From the IMG/VR virus record IMGVR_UViG_3300042887_001618, positions 1-33,036 of that record: 33,036 nucleotides of DNA; one strand, 5' to 3'. The translations under genes and the position numbers were made by a program. Under the pieces are notes generated by a model. That model searched no databases, was not told where the DNA came from, and saw nothing but the letters and a program-made list of their open reading frames with translations. Position 1 is the stretch's first letter. Each line of letters opens with the position of its first letter. Positions 1-33,036 of the stretch are shown piece after piece. The DNA comes from a virus.

Positions 1-512
1 GCCTTGAGATACATTGACCAATCAAGTCCTGATGACAGCCTTGGATCAAATGGGCACCAGTTCATCTTGGTAAGGATATCAGATCTGAGCACTCTGCCAA
101 TGCCAATTGGCTCATATTGCCGTTGTCCTTTGAGATATCCTGGCCAATGGACCAGCCTCACCTCATCAGATACATCTGCAAAGTGACAGCCAAGCATTCC
201 AATGAATGGAAAGTCATTGAGAGCATCACTGACTGATTGAATGTAATCATCAGATGCCCAGTCAGAGGAGCCCATGAATATGACTCCATCAGGATTGTAA
301 CTCTTGCAAGCCATGAATCCAGCATTCCACTTGTTGCCAAGAGGATCATTGCTGATTGATATGAACTCAACATCCAATTCATTGGCAATGTCAAGAGCTT
401 CTCTCTCATGGCCCATAATTATCGGAATGACTCCTTGCCTTATCAATCTGGAGATAGTGAGTCTGACAAGAGGAAAACGGCCAAAAACAGGGATTGGAGC
501 ACAAAGTTTCAT
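1..512 (-). CDS. Glycosyltransferase family 2-like protein, partial (variant A of the gene at 32264-32962)
   Basis: The start codon is at 512, in an ATGA overlap with the stop of the upstream gene. The reading frame runs off the window start after 170 codons, so the C-terminal third is missing here. The 170 visible residues differ from the complete copy at about 19 positions between residues 31 and 126, mostly conservative, while the ends are identical. The segment NDPLGNKWNAGF and the motif MGSSDW, in the place where GT-A enzymes carry a nucleotide-sugar or metal-binding acidic motif, suggest a sugar transferase. Family assignment is by eye. On a circular map this is not a second gene but another allele of the same gene. 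Confidence 0.7.
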   Translation of the reverse strand, partial: MKLCAPIPVFGRFPLVRLTISRLIRQGVIPIIMGHEREALDIANELDVEFISISNDPLGNKWNAGFMACKSYNPDGVIFMGSSDWASDDYIQSVSDALNDFPFIGMLGCHFADVSDEVRLVHWPGYLKGQRQYEPIGIGRVLRSDILTKMNWCPFDPRLSSGLDWSMYLK

Positions 513-856: not shown

Positions 857-1052
857 AGATCAAGATTAAGTCACTGATTAGATATGAGATGAAACCAAGG
901 GCACAGAGCCTCCATTCATACATGGAAAAGATTGCCACTGTTGTCCAAAATGACATGCAGCTCTGGCAATTAAATGGCTTGATGTCTGGCATCTGAAAAG
1001 TGAGGAGAGCTCTGGCAATCCCCACTGATAAAAGAGGAATGATGTATATCAT
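843..1052 (-). CDS. Small membrane protein with CxxC motif
   Basis: A 69-residue, mostly hydrophobic protein with likely membrane segments at about 2-20 and 45-65, and a conserved-looking NCQSCMSFW segment around residues 28-36. I recognise the general type from Bacteroidota phage genomes but know of no function. It starts inside the C-terminal coding end of the sigma-like gene (83-base overlap) and ends 14 bases inside the next gene, so it is probably translated by coupling. Membrane topology is inferred from composition only. Confidence 0.7.
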   Translation of the reverse strand: MIYIIPLLSVGIARALLTFQMPDIKPFNCQSCMSFWTTVAIFSMYEWRLCALGFISYLISDLILIYENK

Positions 1053-1488
1053 ATTTGAATTTATTAATTGCTTTGTTTATAGTATCCAGGTTGATTCCTG
1101 TGAGGCCTTTGATTTCTCTGTAAGTCATGCCCATGAGTCTCATCTTGGTGATCTCTTTGCAGAACAGCTCCTCATCATTGTCAGGAGATTGCTCAAGGTA
1201 AGCATCCAGGATCTGTTGGTATTGAGTCTCATTGTACACATCCTCCTCTGCTATTTTATCAAATCCTTCTGGTATGGGCACTGATCCTCTGTACAATTGG
1301 TTGAACTTTGATTCTTTCCAGTTGTATTGGTTGTATGCCCATCTGGCAAATACACGAGGGAGATCTTGCTCTTTGATGTTGAGCTTTGCCAATAGTAGAT
1401 AGACATGGGGCACAAGGTCATGGTGAAGGTGATTTCCTCCTGTGATCTTGTTTGCGATGATATAAGCCTCTTTTTTCCAGAATTCCAC
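970..1488 (-). CDS. Sigma-factor-like regulator with C-terminal helix-turn-helix
   Basis: A 172-residue protein starting with GTG; the same frame is closed by the stop of the preceding gene just upstream, so no earlier start is available. Residues 1-50 (AYIIANKI, HHDLVPHVYLLL) resemble region 2 of ECF-like sigma factors in Bacteroidota phages. Residues about 100-145 (MRLMGMTYREIKGLTGI followed by TINKAINKFK) look like a region 4 helix-turn-helix. It may direct host RNA polymerase to later phage promoters. The last about 25 residues overlap the next gene and look like low-constraint sequence. Function is by resemblance; an HTH regulator without sigma activity is the alternative. Confidence 0.65.
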   Translation of the reverse strand: MEFWKKEAYIIANKITGGNHLHHDLVPHVYLLLAKLNIKEQDLPRVFARWAYNQYNWKESKFNQLYRGSVPIPEGFDKIAEEDVYNETQYQQILDAYLEQSPDNDEELFCKEITKMRLMGMTYREIKGLTGINLDTINKAINKFKYDIHHSSFISGDCQSSPHFSDARHQAI

Positions 1489-18191: not shown

Positions 18192-18860
18192 ATGTATCTT
18201 TGTTCAATGGTATTTGTGTATCCATATAAGAGGAGCCCTGATCACTTTGACATCATGCAATCAATTGCCTGGATCAAGAGAGTATATCCAGAGGCAACCA
18301 TTTACACCATTGGAGATGCTGTGCCTGGAGCTCTCAATATACCATGCACTCAATACAACAACATCAGAGGGATTGATGTGACCAACAGGATCTTGACTTT
18401 TGCCAGGACCATTGGAGGGGATTTCATTTATATGAATGATGATTTTTATATCTCAGAGAAATGGAGTCCTGATGTGGTATATTTCAAAGGAATCCTGGAG
18501 ATCAATCCTAATCATCCAGCACATTATCAAGAGGCCGCAAGAAACACAGCTGAATTTCTCATGCACAACAAGTTCCCTATCAACAATTATGAATGCCATC
18601 AACCTGTCAAGATGAACTCTGCCAAGTTGATCAAGCTCTTTGATCAGATCAACTGGCAAGATGGCAACCATTTTATCAAGAGCATATATCTCAATGTGTA
18701 CAAATGTAATGCTCAGCCAGGTGAGAATGTAAAGTTGCACAGGCCAGATGTGACAAAAGCATCCGAATTCCTGAGAATATATGGATGCTTCAGCACTGGA
18801 GAGGCCTTTCTTTCAAAGGCTGGAGTTGATTTCTTAAAAAGAGGTCTTAGCCTCTTGTAA
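18192..18860 (+). CDS. Plus-strand glycosyltransferase-like protein (Stealth-like YMNDDFYI)
   Basis: The only plus-strand gene. The 222-residue product (start at 18192, or at ATG 18207, which gives MVFVYPYKRS) has a Rossmann-like opening (WIKRVYPEATIYTIGD) and the motif YMNDDFYI at 80-87, which resembles the NDD motif of Stealth-type sugar-phosphate transferases and of related phage proteins; a histidine-bearing segment NNYECHQPVKMN follows. It sits inverted between tape measure and protease genes, and its last 27 bases overlap the tape measure gene tail-to-tail. This looks like an independently expressed accessory gene that alters virion or host sugars. Its low CG content matches the phage core, so insertion is not very recent. 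Confidence 0.65.
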   Translation: MYLCSMVFVYPYKRSPDHFDIMQSIAWIKRVYPEATIYTIGDAVPGALNIPCTQYNNIRGIDVTNRILTFARTIGGDFIYMNDDFYISEKWSPDVVYFKGILEINPNHPAHYQEAARNTAEFLMHNKFPINNYECHQPVKMNSAKLIKLFDQINWQDGNHFIKSIYLNVYKCNAQPGENVKLHRPDVTKASEFLRIYGCFSTGEAFLSKAGVDFLKRGLSLL

Positions 18861-27884: not shown

Positions 27885-28664
27885 GCTCTTTGTTTATTAT
27901 GCGTTTTTGTTCATCAGCAATCTTGAAATAATTCATCCAGAACAATGTTTTCACATATGGCTGTTTTGTAATTCCTTCCACACTGCATCCCATCTCTCTT
28001 GATAATCTATGGATGATTCCTGTCCAGAGGAACCATTCTGAATCTTTAACTCTTGCTCCAGTATCATCCTCTCCATCATCATCCTCGCTGTCTGTATCCC
28101 CAAAATAGCGAGCCTCCGCTTGTCTAAGCTGTCCAAAAAAAAAGCGTAAAAATTCAAGAACTCATCACCAGGAAAATGCTCTCTGAATGTGAGATATCTT
28201 TTTTCATTAGGATTGAGCACTCGGCCTCTCTCATCCTCTTGGCAATATTCCATCCCATCCTCAACATACATGATTGACAATGGAGCCCAAGGATCAGCAC
28301 TGATGTCCTCAATCAATTTCAAGTCAATGATCTGACCTGTTGTGACATGGGCAAAGTTTTTCTCAAGCCTGTACTTTTGGCCCTTGATCTCAATGACCTC
28401 CTCTGGCTCTTTCTGTTGGTATTGGCTGATGATTGTAAAGATATGCTTGCTTGCCTCCATGATGGAATCAGGCACAGCCTTCTTGACTTTGTTCACTGGC
28501 AACCTGGAGAATATGCTCACAACTTGACAATGAAATTCAAGTATCTCTGTCAATGACCTCTCATTAATGGTTGATAATGTGTCACTTACCATCAACCACT
28601 TGTACATCATATCAGCTCCGCATTCCTTGATGCTTGCTGGCAATTTTATGTTGATATCTTTCAT
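27877..28664 (-). CDS. Tail assembly chaperone GT fusion made by -1 frameshift (about 262 residues)
   Basis: After a -1 slip on the run of nine T at 28135-28143, the second frame stays open for 85 codons and ends at 27877. The extension reads as a real protein: FGQLRQAEARYFG, then an acidic linker (SEDDDGEDDTGA), then EWFLWTGIIHRLSREMGC, then PYVKTLFWMNYFKIADEQ. No good start lies near the slip, and the frame's quality exceeds that of the zero-frame end. This is the classical gpG/gpGT layout of long-tailed phages, where the longer product recruits the tape measure. Frameshifting efficiency cannot be seen from sequence. Confidence 0.82.
27951..28664 (-). CDS. Tail assembly chaperone G (zero-frame product, 237 residues)
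   Basis: The start is the ATG at 28664, in an ATGA overlap with the large terminase stop; a TTG at 28718 would overlap the terminase by 58 bases. The protein opens MKDINIKLPASIKECGADMM, is helical in its first half, and carries IEIKGQKYRLEKNF and ITVQ-like strands in the middle (VTTGQIIDLKLIEDI, LSIMYVEDG). After the slippery run at residues 175-177 the zero frame continues for about 60 residues rich in M, R, Q and E. It is the abundant short partner of the frameshift product. Confidence 0.75.
   Translation of the reverse strand: MKDINIKLPASIKECGADMMYKWLMVSDTLSTINERSLTEILEFHCQVVSIFSRLPVNKVKKAVPDSIMEASKHIFTIISQYQQKEPEEVIEIKGQKYRLEKNFAHVTTGQIIDLKLIEDISADPWAPLSIMYVEDGMEYCQEDERGRVLNPNEKRYLTFREHFPGDEFLNFYAFFLDSLDKRRLAILGIQTARMMMERMILEQELKIQNGSSGQESSIDYQERWDAVWKELQNSHM
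28135..28143 (-). promoter_or_regulatory. Slippery sequence for -1 programmed frameshift (run of nine T)
   Basis: On the minus strand the gene reads GC followed by nine T and GG, so two Phe codons can slip back by one base (T TTT TTT). The following 85-codon open frame, conserved-looking protein in both frames and the position in a tail chaperone gene point to programmed frameshifting. I did not find an obvious strong pseudoknot by eye. Confidence 0.75.
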
Positions 28665-29863
28665 GCTCTGATCACTTGGTATCTGCCTTTGTTCTGTTGT
28701 GTCTTGCGACAATGCCAAGCAAGAGCCAAGCTCATCACACCATCATCATGCATCCCTATTGGAGCACTGTACTGAACAGCTCTTGTGTTGACGTTGTAAA
28801 TATAGGTAAAATTCTCGAGTTCATCCACAAGCCAGCTTTCATCCTGGAGAGATATCTCCATCTGCTCAAAGGCAATGGCAAGATCCTCAATGATGACTTG
28901 CTTGCTCTTGGATGTTGTTGTGAATGGCACAATCAAATTGCGGCACTTGTCTCTGAGCATCTCATGGAATATATCCCCTTGATTATTAACCTCAATCAAT
29001 GTTGTGGCCCTGTGCTTGTTGATGACATCAGCAACCTTGTCAATGATCTTGTTCCATTCATCATGCCTCCATCTGTTGACGTACACCTGTTGACCATCCT
29101 CATCCAATATGTTGAGCACAGTGTAGTCATCAGCTCGGCCAATGTCAAGGCCAGCATATCTCTTGGAACCTGGAGAGATTGGCTTGACACATTGAGCCAC
29201 ATTCTTGAATAAGCCAGATGCATTGTCAATGAACTCGGCAAGGTACTCTTGTTTGAATACATGATCAGGCAAGGACCTCCTCCTCTCATCAAGCTCCCTT
29301 GGATCAATCATCGGATTGTCATAACTTGAATAATGATGGTATGCATACCTCTCATCATAGTTGTGTTGCATACAGATCCTGTGGAAATGATTCTTGCCTT
29401 TTGGTGTTGAGATGAATATCACCTTCTTGCCCTTGACCATCACTGTTGCACTCAGGACCTCATCCCACAACTCTGGCCTGGTGAATGCCATCTCATCCAC
29501 AACCATGTAGTCAAAGGTGTTCCCTCTGATGTTGTCTGGTCTCTCACCAGAAAAGAACTCAATGGTTGATCCAAAACCACTGACCATCAGATCAGATCTG
29601 TTGAATGTGAACAGGTTGCTCTTGACAACAGCTCTCTCAAGATCTGCAAAAACTTTCTTTCCTTGTTTATATACTGGAGTTACCCAAGCAATGCGGCACC
29701 CTCTGTCATTGATGGCCCACCAAAGGAGCTGGTTGATTCCAAGCAAGGTCTTGCCAAACTGACGGCCAATGTTGAGAGCATAGTATTTCTCATGACCATA
29801 GTTGATGGCATCATGTATCTCTCTCTGTTTGTCATGTGGCTTGTACCCTTTGACTGTACTCAT
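28661..29863 (-). CDS. terL: Terminase large subunit
   Basis: A 400-residue packaging motor. ATPase: Walker A-like GRQFGKT (33-39), VTPVYKQGKK as the motif next to it (61-70), Walker B MVVDEMA (120-126) and coupling motif FISTPKG (150-156). Nuclease: GLDIGRADDY (238-247), IEVNNQGD (290-297) and HDDGVMSLAL near the end give three acidic positions of the RNase H-like fold. Length is normal for a minimal TerL. It overlaps the small subunit upstream and the chaperone gene downstream as ATGA. Packaging type (cos or headful) cannot be told from this alone; the circular permutation hint favours headful. Confidence 0.93.
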   Translation of the reverse strand: MSTVKGYKPHDKQREIHDAINYGHEKYYALNIGRQFGKTLLGINQLLWWAINDRGCRIAWVTPVYKQGKKVFADLERAVVKSNLFTFNRSDLMVSGFGSTIEFFSGERPDNIRGNTFDYMVVDEMAFTRPELWDEVLSATVMVKGKKVIFISTPKGKNHFHRICMQHNYDERYAYHHYSSYDNPMIDPRELDERRRSLPDHVFKQEYLAEFIDNASGLFKNVAQCVKPISPGSKRYAGLDIGRADDYTVLNILDEDGQQVYVNRWRHDEWNKIIDKVADVINKHRATTLIEVNNQGDIFHEMLRDKCRNLIVPFTTTSKSKQVIIEDLAIAFEQMEISLQDESWLVDELENFTYIYNVNTRAVQYSAPIGMHDDGVMSLALAWHCRKTQQNKGRYQVIRA

Positions 29864-30258
29864 TCAAAATCAAACTTGTCAACATCTCTTGTCTCAATCT
29901 GTTGACGGTCATGCATGCCAAGAAAATTCTTTCCGTAGAATATTCCCTTGCCTTCATTGGCAACAATGTGAATGCCAAGAGATTTAAAGTCCTCTTGTAT
30001 ATTTTTTATTGTGTCCCATAATGGATGTGTTTCATCATTTAGGGCTCTGTAATATTGACTCTTTTGATAAAATTCAAAGTCTTGCTTTCTCATCCATATC
30101 CTCAAGAAATGTCTGACATCTGGAATGACTCTGTCTTTGACTTCATGCACTCCAGAATTAACAACAACCTGTTTAGTTGCTGATTCACATTCATCAATAT
30201 ATTTCCAGGCTAATTCTCTGAGTTTCTCAATGTCAATATCTCTGTGTGTGTTTGACAT
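29860..30258 (-). CDS. terS: Terminase small subunit candidate
   Basis: A 132-residue, charged, helical protein directly before TerL with an ATGA overlap. The N-terminal helix (IEKLRELAWKYIDECE) and central basic-aromatic segment (VRHFLRIWMRKQDFEFYQ) fit DNA-recognition and oligomerisation parts of small terminases, and the C-terminal GKNFLGMHDRQQIETRDV may contact TerL. I recognise it mostly from position and style, as TerS sequences diverge quickly. A palindrome lies just upstream of its start. Confidence 0.7.
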   Translation of the reverse strand: MSNTHRDIDIEKLRELAWKYIDECESATKQVVVNSGVHEVKDRVIPDVRHFLRIWMRKQDFEFYQKSQYYRALNDETHPLWDTIKNIQEDFKSLGIHIVANEGKGIFYGKNFLGMHDRQQIETRDVDKFDFE

Positions 30259-30305: not shown

Positions 30306-30485
30306 TTATTTATTATTATATAAGTTTGTTCTAATCTCTTGGAATTTGTTCTCCATCCATTGAGTATTGCACACTGCAAATCTCTGAGAGTTGTCAGGAA
30401 ATTCCTCAACGGCTTTATCATCTGACATGCATCTCTGGATAAACTCATCCTTTGTCTCTTGTGGTGTTGGTTGTGGTATTGGCAT
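30306..30485 (-). CDS. Small conserved phage protein (ETKDEFIQRCM type), 59 residues
   Basis: The proper start is the ATG at 30485, which shares one base with the amidotransferase stop (TAATG); the frame's TTG at 30494 is not needed. The product MPIPQPTPQETKDEFIQRCM, with a following VEEFPDNSQRFAVCNTQW, matches a short motif repeatedly found in Caudovirales as a small protein or at the end of head proteins (pattern DEFI-RCM...EF-D--QR-AVC---W). The two cysteines may bind zinc. Function unknown; its place before the terminase suits a head or packaging role. Confidence 0.7.
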   Translation of the reverse strand: MPIPQPTPQETKDEFIQRCMSDDKAVEEFPDNSQRFAVCNTQWMENKFQEIRTNLYNNK

Positions 30486-31555
30486 TATTTGCAATATTTG
30501 ATGTAAAACGTATATGGCACAACTTTGAGCTTTGCAAGTATCCAGATCAGTGATCTGTACTTTTTGAAATCATACTTGTCAAAGTTCTTTCTGTCCATCT
30601 TTCTGATTGATATCAGCTTCATGATTCTCTGCTCAACAGCTCCGAGCTTGGTTGTGTCGAATGTTGATGGCTTGTTGAATATAGCCATTGCCTCCTCTTT
30701 CTTGAGCTTGCCACTTCTCACTTGTGCTGAGAGATACACAATCCTCTTATCAATGCCGAACTTTACAGGCAAGAGATATGATCCGACAAACTCAGTATAA
30801 ACATTCTCACAATGCTTGCCTCCATAATCTTGCCAGTTGATGAATCTTTTCATCTCAGCCTCCATTGACTCACGGTCCCACTTGTAATGGAATGGCCTCA
30901 CATTCTTGATACCCACAAGAGCATAGAATAATTGGTCCTTGAATGTGAACAAAGGATAGTTGTTGAGCTCCAGTCCTGTGAATCTTGTATATACTGATCT
31001 GATGTACTTGGCATCCATATATGTCCATCCCTTTGGTGTTGATCCCTCTGTTCTGAAATCATGGCCATTGAGAATGTACTTGATGCCATACTTGTGAGCT
31101 GTGTCATACATCAGTTTGGTCATTGCAATGTCGTTTGGTATATCTGCATCAGGGAGTCCAGCCCAAAGGAATGCATCATTGAGCCTGTCGTATTCTGCCT
31201 TGTTGACTTGATATGTGATGCAATCAACTCCGAGCTTTTGGACCAGCTGAGTCATGTTGTGTGTTGCCTCTGGAGCATTCCAGTTGTTGTCAAAGTGAAT
31301 GACCAAGGGCTTGAGCCTCCAATGTCTGACCGCTGCATACAGCAATGTTGAGGAGTCCACACCTCCAGAGATTCCCATGATACAGTCATATTTCTTTTTT
31401 CTGCCATACCATCTGATGGATTCCAGGAGATTCTCCAGGGCTCCCGGTCCTGATGCTTGTCTCTCCAGCTCATCATGGAGATCACAATATTCACATTGAT
31501 GCTCTCCTATCTCTGCAAAGGAGTCATTAAATAAACAGCGTTGACATTCTTTCAT
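30485..31555 (-). CDS. N-acetyl sugar amidotransferase-like PP-loop ATPase (WbpG/PseA family)
   Basis: A 356-residue protein. Two CxxC pairs (C4/C7 and C21/C24) form an N-terminal zinc knuckle; SGGVDSS at 63-69 is the ATP pyrophosphatase PP-loop; VIHFDNNWN (about 84-92) and ILNGHDFRTEG follow as in the WbpG/PseA-type enzymes that amidate N-acetyl sugars of O-antigen or flagellin glycans. The ammonia-supplying partner (WbpH/HisH-like glutaminase) is not in the window, so it would use free ammonia or a host partner. Alternatives are tRNA or DNA modification by a related PP-loop enzyme. It follows two transferase genes in one coupled run (29-base overlap), which favours a sugar substrate. Confidence 0.78.
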   Translation of the reverse strand: MKECQRCLFNDSFAEIGEHQCEYCDLHDELERQASGPGALENLLESIRWYGRKKKYDCIMGISGGVDSSTLLYAAVRHWRLKPLVIHFDNNWNAPEATHNMTQLVQKLGVDCITYQVNKAEYDRLNDAFLWAGLPDADIPNDIAMTKLMYDTAHKYGIKYILNGHDFRTEGSTPKGWTYMDAKYIRSVYTRFTGLELNNYPLFTFKDQLFYALVGIKNVRPFHYKWDRESMEAEMKRFINWQDYGGKHCENVYTEFVGSYLLPVKFGIDKRIVYLSAQVRSGKLKKEEAMAIFNKPSTFDTTKLGAVEQRIMKLISIRKMDRKNFDKYDFKKYRSLIWILAKLKVVPYTFYIKYCK

Positions 31556-32267
31556 AATTCACAAATGTATGATAAATTTTTGATACTTCTTTATTACTAA
31601 ATTCTCTCAGAGAATACTCAAGCAAGATATTCTCACATATGTCATCCACTGAATGCCAGGAGATTGATGCTGGCAGATCACCATTGTATATTGACCTACG
31701 GCCCATGAGGCCCATCTCAATGTTGGTATTTGGGCAACCATCATGCGGAGTCAGTCTCAGATTAATGAAGCATTGAGAGTATACACTGACAAGCTCCTCT
31801 CTTGTGAACGTGTCATATCCAGCTCTGATGATTGGAATGTCAATCCTTTCCTTGATCTCATTGATCAGTTGTTGACCATAGAATTCTGGGCTGTTGCCAG
31901 AATACCAGAATATCTTGTCACCATTAGGCAGACATGGCCACATCTCTGGCTGAACAGCATTGAATGGATAAACAATGGCATCCACTCCCTTGCTCTCCAG
32001 TGTATCAGCCACTCTCTGAGATACAGCAATGTTCACAGCTGAATTGACTGTATCAACCCAGTCCTCTCTGAGATCCATGGCATCTGATCCAAACCAAATG
32101 ATTGTGGCTCCTCCAATGTGCTTTGAGAATAGGTTGAAATCCTCATCTCTGTACATACCCATAAATATTGCTGGAAAGAGAAAGTTGCTGTACGGCACCA
32201 GGTTGTATTTCTTAATCAGTCCTTGATCAAGTCCAGCAAGAGACTCTGAGATGTGTGCCTGATTCAT
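31527..32267 (-). CDS. Glycosyltransferase family 4-like protein
   Basis: A 246-residue protein that lacks a long N-terminal domain. The C-terminal segment LTPHDGCPNTNIEMGLMG (172-189) matches the donor-binding end of GT-B enzymes, where E-x-x-x-x-G (here NIEMGLMG) contacts the nucleotide-sugar. Earlier parts read as alternating strands and helices (GATIIWFGSDAMDL, GVDAIVYPFNAV, KIFWYSGNSPEFYG), as in GT4 proteins. At 246 residues it is shorter than most GT4 enzymes, so it may act with the neighbouring GT2-like protein. The start overlaps that gene as ATGA. Confidence 0.75.
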   Translation of the reverse strand: MNQAHISESLAGLDQGLIKKYNLVPYSNFLFPAIFMGMYRDEDFNLFSKHIGGATIIWFGSDAMDLREDWVDTVNSAVNIAVSQRVADTLESKGVDAIVYPFNAVQPEMWPCLPNGDKIFWYSGNSPEFYGQQLINEIKERIDIPIIRAGYDTFTREELVSVYSQCFINLRLTPHDGCPNTNIEMGLMGRRSIYNGDLPASISWHSVDDICENILLEYSLREFSNKEVSKIYHTFVNYERMSTLFI

Positions 32268-32962
32268 AGTGTGAATATTTCCTCAAAATTATTTTTTAAC
32301 AGCTCATTGTTCATATGTGTTGACTTGAGAGATCCTGACCAGTGATCAGAGAATTTATGCTTGTTGATCCACTTATCTGTGCTGATTGACAAGAGCCTGA
32401 TATCTTTCTCCTCATCCTTGATCACAGCCAGCTCCTCAATGAGTCTGATGGCCTTGAGATACATTGACCAATCAAGTCCTGATGACAGCCTTGGATCAAA
32501 TGGGCACCAGTTCATCTTGGTAAGGATATCAGATCTGAGCACTCTGCCAATGCCGATTGGCTCATATTGCCGTTGTCCTTTGGCATATCCTGGCCAATGG
32601 ACCAGCCTCACCTCATCAGATACATCTGCAAAGTGACAGCCAAGCATTCCAATGAATGGAAAGTCATTGATGGCATCAGACACAAGCTCAAGGTAATTAT
32701 CAGAGCACCAGTCAGAGGAGCCCATGAATATCACACCATCAGGAGAATAATTCTGGCAAGCCATGAATCCAGCATTCCACTTGTTGCCAAGAGGATCATT
32801 GCTGATTGGTATAAACTCAATGTTGAATTCCTCTGCTATCTGCATAGCTTCTTTCTCATGGCCGATAATTATCGGAATAACACCTTGCCTTATCAATCTG
32901 GAGATTGTTAGTCTGACAAGAGGAAAACGGCCAAAAACAGGGATTGGAGCACAAAGTTTCAT
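32264..32962 (-). CDS. Glycosyltransferase family 2-like protein (variant B, complete)
   Basis: A 232-residue protein with a Rossmann-like opening (MKLCAPIPVFGRFPLVRLTI, then GVIPIIIGHE), NDPLGNKWNAGF at 55-66 and MGSSDW at 80-85, the likely nucleotide-sugar/metal motif of a GT-A fold. RLSSGLDWSMYLKA near 160-172 lies where the GT2 acceptor base (often ED or xED) would be, so the catalytic residue is uncertain. It starts in an ATGA overlap with the HeH-protein gene and passes to the GT4-like gene in another. Residues between 31 and 126 differ from variant A at the left window end at about 19 positions. Confidence 0.78.
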   Translation of the reverse strand: MKLCAPIPVFGRFPLVRLTISRLIRQGVIPIIIGHEKEAMQIAEEFNIEFIPISNDPLGNKWNAGFMACQNYSPDGVIFMGSSDWCSDNYLELVSDAINDFPFIGMLGCHFADVSDEVRLVHWPGYAKGQRQYEPIGIGRVLRSDILTKMNWCPFDPRLSSGLDWSMYLKAIRLIEELAVIKDEEKDIRLLSISTDKWINKHKFSDHWSGSLKSTHMNNELLKNNFEEIFTL

Positions 32963-33036
32963 GAGAGGGCTTGTATTAAGTCTTGCTTGGTTGATGTGTT
33001 TGGCATGTTGATGCCTCTCCTCTTGGCCTCTGCCTT
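32451..33036. repeat. Right copy of the terminal repeat (variant B)
   Basis: Gapless partner of 1-586. The identity run that abuts the right window end is exactly 127 bases (32910-33036 against 460-586). 127 is the largest k-mer in common use in short-read assembly, which argues that the window end is an assembly-graph overlap rather than a biological terminus. Confidence 0.9.
32959..33036 (-). CDS. C-terminal end of the HeH/SAP-like protein gene, partial (second copy)
   Basis: The last 25 codons and stop of the 115-residue HeH protein (KAEAKRRGINM onward) are repeated here without change from 509-586. The gene is cut by the window end. On the circular map this is the same gene, not a duplicate. 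Confidence 0.85.
   Translation of the reverse strand, partial: KAEAKRRGINMPNTSTKQDLIQALS

Follow-up and report, generated by a model that had tools for sequence, protein, structure and literature searches.

Why would a phage genome of some 32 kb keep enzymes for the transfer and amidation of sugars directly in front of the genes that package its DNA? The question is posed by the IMG/VR record IMGVR_UViG_3300042887_001618, whose positions 1-33,036 were analyzed here (henceforth the window, i.e. this whole 33,036-nucleotide stretch). Its minus strand encodes a cassette of three consecutive genes: a GT2-like glycosyltransferase (32264-32962; 232 aa), a GT4-like glycosyltransferase (31527-32267; 246 aa) and a WbuX/WbpG/PseA-type N-acetyl-sugar amidotransferase (NASAT; 30485-31555; 356 aa), with an overlap of 4 bp between the two glycosyltransferase genes and of 29 bp between the GT4-like and NASAT genes. 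The original prediction had placed three coupled genes directly ahead of the terminase genes at 30485-32962, and this arrangement is recovered to the base. We consider it quite probable that they constitute a locus for glycan tailoring in which one enzyme forms amidino groups.

The amidotransferase matches the NCBIfam WbuX model (TIGR03573) over residues 1-319 with 185.8 bits (E 1.5e-54), whereas the LarE, TilS and NAD synthase models reach only 17-27 bits. It displays the PP-loop SGGVDS (residues 63-68; 31352-31369, minus strand) and the four cysteines of the tetracysteine (Zn) motif, Cys4, Cys7, Cys21 and Cys24 (31484-31546, minus strand); the SGGxDS pattern and the four cysteines are invariant among 19 phage homologs. 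The published NASAT signature includes a tetracysteine motif of the form CXXCXn[GN]XCXXC (PMC10607449). The [GN] position, two residues ahead of the third cysteine, is lost in the phage proteins: at the equivalent residue 19 the window has H and phages vary, as against G in all 21 bacterial homologs. Across the same 21 homologs, 73 columns are at least 90% conserved, and 53 of these are retained in the window NASAT, which also has in common with WbpG a C-terminal block, YGGKHxExxYTxF. In all 12 records of the window's phage group the TIGR03573 score lies between 162 and 188 bits, under the curated cut-off of 203.2. In phylogenetic trees the phage NASATs form a single clade (100/100) within the branch of above-cut-off bacterial members; their nearest neighbor there is a long-branched Bacteroidia protein (L207), although this sister relation is unsure. 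Thus, with sub-threshold scores and a placement inside the above-cut-off branch, the phage NASATs are best read as diverged WbuX/WbpG relatives that stand formally outside the curated subfamily. A scan of bacterial genomes with the phage NASAT alignment recovered one relative, and the closest bacterial form found is about 38% identical to the window NASAT.

The two glycosyltransferases are recognizable chiefly at the level of predicted structure. The AlphaFold model of the GT2-like protein (pLDDT 93.8) retrieves in Foldseek searches, as top matches, the GT2 enzymes 6p61 (E 1e-9) and SpsA (1h7l, E 4e-9), and also TarS/TarP and WrtF; its GSSDW motif contains an aspartate, Asp84, that is invariant in the alignment. 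The model thereby supports a GT-A fold with an acidic metal-site motif. The GT4-like protein (pLDDT 86.3) finds the GT-B enzymes TarM, SdgB, SenB and BshA at E-values of about 3e-5 to 1e-3, which supports a predicted GT-B fold, of compact form, with two Rossmann-like domains; it has no Pfam match above the cut-off. A match of its profile to AcrIF14 (E 0.045) was weak and judged to be due to chance. No transmembrane segments are predicted in any of the three cassette enzymes. The enzyme classes originally proposed from the sequence, GT2-like, GT4-like and WbpG/PseA-type, thus stand, on the WbuX match and the two predicted folds.

A scan of IMG/VR yielded 134 confirmed amidotransferase loci, 80 of which were kept, and 264 loci with a terminase large subunit (TerL); some of the loci are one contig fetched twice. 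The gene-neighborhood comparison in related phages that had been suggested at the outset gave a clear outcome: the loci read show the recurrent order g172-g69-ORF115-GT2-[slot]-WbpG-TerS-TerL, TerS being the terminase small subunit. The slot between the GT2 and WbpG genes, filled in the window by the GT4-like gene, holds a GT4 in about two thirds of the loci. Elsewhere it is taken by a version of the GT4 with only 26-28% identity, by an S-adenosylmethionine-dependent methyltransferase of 179-180 aa or, in two loci, by a glycosyltransferase of 303-315 aa, and in some it is empty. Further relatives (L093-L097) have a TerL 84-85% identical and no WbpG; slot contents were read in three of them, two of which (L093 and L095) hold a hexapeptide acetyltransferase together with a different GT2-like gene, and the third (L097) an unrelated GT2. 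Pairwise ratios of nonsynonymous to synonymous substitution (dN/dS) are 0.07-0.16 for WbpG, 0.07-0.17 for the GT4, 0.20-0.36 for the GT2 and 0.07-0.13 for TerL, values that mark purifying selection on the cassette genes as strong. Because homologs keep this order in about 100 IMG/VR loci at low dN/dS, the three reading frames are judged to be real genes. Taken together, the selection, the recurrent order and the exchange at the slot describe a locus that is selected, fixed in position and variable in content. By this comparison the cassette is no one-off: a large group of uncultivated phages has it as a common and conserved locus.

Related cassettes of richer content occur in other phages. A search of IMG/VR with bacterial WbpG sequences returned five contigs (G162-G166). 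Downstream of the WbuX gene, each has a class I glutaminase of the CTP-synthase type with the Cys and His conserved and a GT4 homologous to that of the window (hhalign 98.3%, E 1.8e-14). They also encode a 4,6-dehydratase, a DegT aminotransferase, a methyltransferase and another glycosyltransferase; one locus (L213) has in addition a WbpB-like dehydrogenase and another (L212) an acetyltransferase. In the three loci L352, L353 and L356, which were read through, the cassette directly precedes a small TerS-like gene, TerL and portal-like genes. Downstream of the cassette G162 has a weak match to the TerL family phrog_2, and G164 has none. The window TerL finds no BLAST match in the loci of G162-G166, which argues that the two lineages are distant, and the window GT2 is unrelated to the approximately 305-aa transferase of these other phages (hhalign 1.3%). 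The amidotransferases of the two phage groups stand apart in the best tree, though a single origin is not rejected (p-AU 0.229). As a near-whole pathway is present in unrelated phages, it appears that phages build and attach these sugars themselves. A bolder generalization, that at least two unrelated lineages of tailed phages coat their own virions with charged acetamidino sugars by means of a module preceding the terminase, the richer version of which would carry its own glutaminase and nucleotide-sugar enzymes, is one that we regard as rather doubtful. As side observations, near-complete amidino-sugar cassettes of unrelated phage contigs were noted at L211, L212, L213, L214 and L218 (and at L352, L353 and L356), with a WbpB-like gene in L212 and L213 and, where the contigs were read, in front of the terminase; G165 and G166 have split transketolase-like reading frames upstream. 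Two loci in which a WbuX gene lies among polysaccharide genes (L209 and L210) were set aside as possibly cellular, with no phrog_2 terminase in the contig G161.

How might the shorter cassette of the window work? In the mechanism that we propose it would be expressed along with the packaging genes. The PP-loop of the NASAT would use ATP to activate the N-acetyl group of a host nucleotide sugar, whereupon ammonia would replace the carbonyl oxygen and yield a positively charged acetamidino sugar; the GT2-like and GT4-like transferases, both presumably cytoplasmic, would then attach this sugar and a second one to an acceptor. Since no glutaminase, sugar dehydratase or aminotransferase was found in the window, the phage pathway would need supply from the host. 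That host is likely a member of Bacteroidota: the phage endolysin shares 74% identity with that of Flavobacterium columnare phages, and the portal resembles that of the Nonlabens phage P12024S. Going by the environments of the hosts and of the matching records, we read the phage as a freshwater one. HisH and HisF are absent from the window and from 152 viral loci, and glutaminases of PF00117 from the window and five complete-length relatives. Among bacteria, members of the WbuX family score above the cut-off in 53 of 149 Bacteroidia genomes, and in 20 of 29 bacterial loci HisH and HisF lie within about 1.5 kb of the NASAT homolog. Thus, the phage NASAT most likely draws on a host glutaminase of the HisH/HisF type or on free ammonia. 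Another bacterial sub-branch, of 600-690 aa, has an N-terminal extension starting with MCGI, apparently a class II glutaminase domain, assigned by eye, fused to the WbuX-family protein. Bacteroidia proteins of this kind are encoded at L202-L208, with that of L207 adjoining a nitrilase-type amidohydrolase instead.

The identity of the acceptor admits two readings of similar standing. With modest confidence we slightly favor virion proteins, in which case the benefit would be shielding of the virion or altered binding; the combined statement, glycan tailoring that includes an amidino-forming enzyme and has a virion protein as its target, remains tentative. The leaning toward virion proteins is based on the enzymes being soluble, on the cassette sharing its strand and gene run with the late genes, and on no flippase, polymerase or GtrA-type gene being recognized in the window phage. 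A precedent exists in mycobacteriophages, which, according to PMC12363180, citing Freeman et al. 2023, encode their own virion glycosylation. Close behind, and plausible even if on balance a little improbable, comes modification of the host surface: amidination and sugar addition on a lipid-linked O-antigen, capsule or other surface glycan would block the adsorption of competitors or the loss of progeny to debris, i.e. act in superinfection exclusion. Several observations weigh against a virion target or against the functional assignments on which it depends. Lipid-linked glycans at the inner face of the membrane are also within reach of soluble glycosyltransferases. The known NASATs, WbpG and WbuX among them, function in O-antigen synthesis (PMC10607449), which favors a surface target; a Bacteroidia metagenome-assembled genome has a homolog (L153) inside a surface polysaccharide locus with HisH and HisF, and the frequent adjacency of HisH and HisF in the 29 other bacterial loci and the above-cut-off members in over a third of the 149 Bacteroidia genomes point the same way. 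The amidotransferase itself falls short of its subfamily cut-off, the PF00117 glutaminase and the sugar enzymes searched for are missing from the window phage, and the function of the GT2-like protein rests on its predicted fold, as its Pfam GT2 match (E 0.062) is beneath the threshold. The swapping of glycosyl-, acetyl- and methyltransferase genes further recalls serotype-converting cassettes, and the O-chain genes of pelagimyophages have been interpreted as acting on the host surface (PMC7029224). Against a surface target, the window phage has no recognized O-acyltransferase in addition to the lack of GtrA/flippase and polymerase genes; no integrase is recognized among its reading frames of at least 200 aa, so that there is no sign of lysogenic conversion; and a position among the late genes would leave little time for remodeling the envelope.

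Readings outside glycan tailoring fare much worse. In favor of glycan tailoring itself, the slot beside WbpG exchanges only glycan-type genes. That the PP-loop protein modifies tRNA or some other small molecule, with the glycosyltransferases as unrelated neighbors, is suggested by the breadth of the PP-loop family, which includes TilS, MnmA and LarE; it is nonetheless very improbable. The TilS model gives the window protein 24.9 bits against its own cut-off of 93.6, and LarE 26.7, compared with the WbuX match extending over 319 residues, so that the placement in a tRNA-modification family named at the outset as a potential objection does not hold; a TilS/MnmA identity was rejected because the similarity is confined to the PP-loop. 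The tetracysteine motif, the C-terminal block common to WbpG and the co-conservation of NASAT and glycosyltransferase genes in two phage groups speak against it as well. Modification of phage DNA, another of the functions originally entertained, would mean that a modified base receives sugar from the transferases and is amidated by the PP-loop enzyme. Phage DNA glycosylation and QueC-like PP-loop enzymes of base modification do exist, and residues 56-111 of the NASAT have a weak QueC-like PHROG match (E 4e-4), but this is limited to the PP-loop and the WbuX match is far stronger. Among the proteins scanned, nothing was recognized that would make hydroxymethyl-pyrimidines or modify bases in another way; the larger proteins of the window likewise include no recognized nucleotide hydroxymethylase and no deazaguanine-type or related gene product, and the other phages pair their NASAT with nucleotide-sugar genes, without base-modification genes; we give this reading hardly any credence. 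A role as a defense system was discarded after a PADLOC search with four window proteins gave no match.

Phage glycosyltransferases and glycan-tailoring genes are already known. The window NASAT is like WbpG of Pseudomonas aeruginosa O5, WbuX of E. coli O145 and LpNASAT (8WEX) in the SGGxDS motif, the four cysteines, the YGGKHxE motif and a length of about 350 aa, yet differs from them in being phage-borne, partnered by phage glycosyltransferases and without adjoining HisH/HisF, besides its roughly 38% identity to the nearest bacterial form found, sub-cut-off score and lost [GN]. Relative to the P. aeruginosa Wbp pathway (WbpB, WbpE, WbpD, WbpG), L212 and L213 join homologs resembling WbpB, WbpE or an acetyltransferase with the NASAT; the window phage has the last step only, and the other phages use the CTP-synthase-type glutaminase in place of HisH/HisF. 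Serotype-converting phages (Shigella Sf phages, P22 gtr, oac) likewise have glycan-tailoring genes interchangeable among phages, but they are temperate and employ membrane GtrA/GtrB proteins or O-acyltransferases, none of which is recognized in the window phage. With the mycobacteriophage system (Che8 gp110, Corndog gp38) the window has phage-encoded glycosyltransferases in common; phages and hosts differ, neither an amidotransferase nor an exchangeable slot is reported there in the excerpt at hand, and for the window a virion target is a proposal. The pelagimyophages are, likewise, uncultured aquatic phages with glycosyltransferase clusters in variable regions, though they are large myophages dominated by GT8, with no NASAT mentioned in the excerpt (PMC7029224). 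Searches of the open-access literature turned up no phage NASAT, and tblastn searches of 50,697 deposited phage records with the three cassette proteins, and with two other WbuX queries, returned no match. The view that no described system has this exact set therefore stands for deposited phages, but the set is common rather than rare, as the 134 IMG/VR loci attest. The terminase-like dN/dS of the NASAT, its fixed position before the packaging genes and its recurrence with a partner glutaminase in unrelated phages suggest that, for these widespread freshwater phages, a glycan bearing a charged amidine group is of importance. Were it placed on the virion, such a glycan would represent a novel virion chemistry, and on the host a new way of excluding competitors. 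The other phages, with their richer cassettes, supply a pathway that is nearly self-sufficient and open to in vitro testing.

Between the cassette and TerS lie 47 bp and a small open reading frame (30306-30494, minus strand; 62 aa, TTG start) that is found in part of the relatives and contains ETKDEFIQRCMSDDKAVEEFPDNSQRFAVC. The putative TerS (29860-30258, minus strand) is assigned from a weak PHROG match (E 0.02) and its position; it overlaps TerL (28661-29863, minus strand; Terminase_6N, E 4.1e-16; phrog_2, E 1.2e-48).

For a fourth transferase-like gene elsewhere, also part of the original prediction, there are two candidates, one of which dissolves on inspection of the contig ends. Positions 1-586 repeat positions 32451-33036, with 541 of 586 bases identical and 45 mismatches in the alignment; the genome, about 32.45 kb long, maps circularly, and its contig ends overlap. 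As these are one stretch, the reading frame at 3-512 (minus strand), truncated where the window begins, shows the GT2 gene once more. At least two strain variants apparently contributed the ends, and the two GT2 versions differ with dN 0.07 and dS 0.18. Complete-length relatives (31.7-33.3 kb) also have overlapping ends and a single GT2 copy each, so that a pair of GT2 paralogs is ruled out. The other candidate, at 18192-18860, is a possible further sugar-transferase-like gene with a YMNDDF motif and weak similarity to Stealth_CR2 (in four of nine homologs, best E 0.0019); it lies between the head protease and tail genes, is kept in all eight complete-length relatives, and is the lone plus-strand gene among the structural genes. 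Finally, just 5' of the cassette a conserved 172-aa protein (970-1488, minus strand) shows weak sigma-70 similarity (E 0.013) and is possibly a sigma factor for the late genes of the phage.

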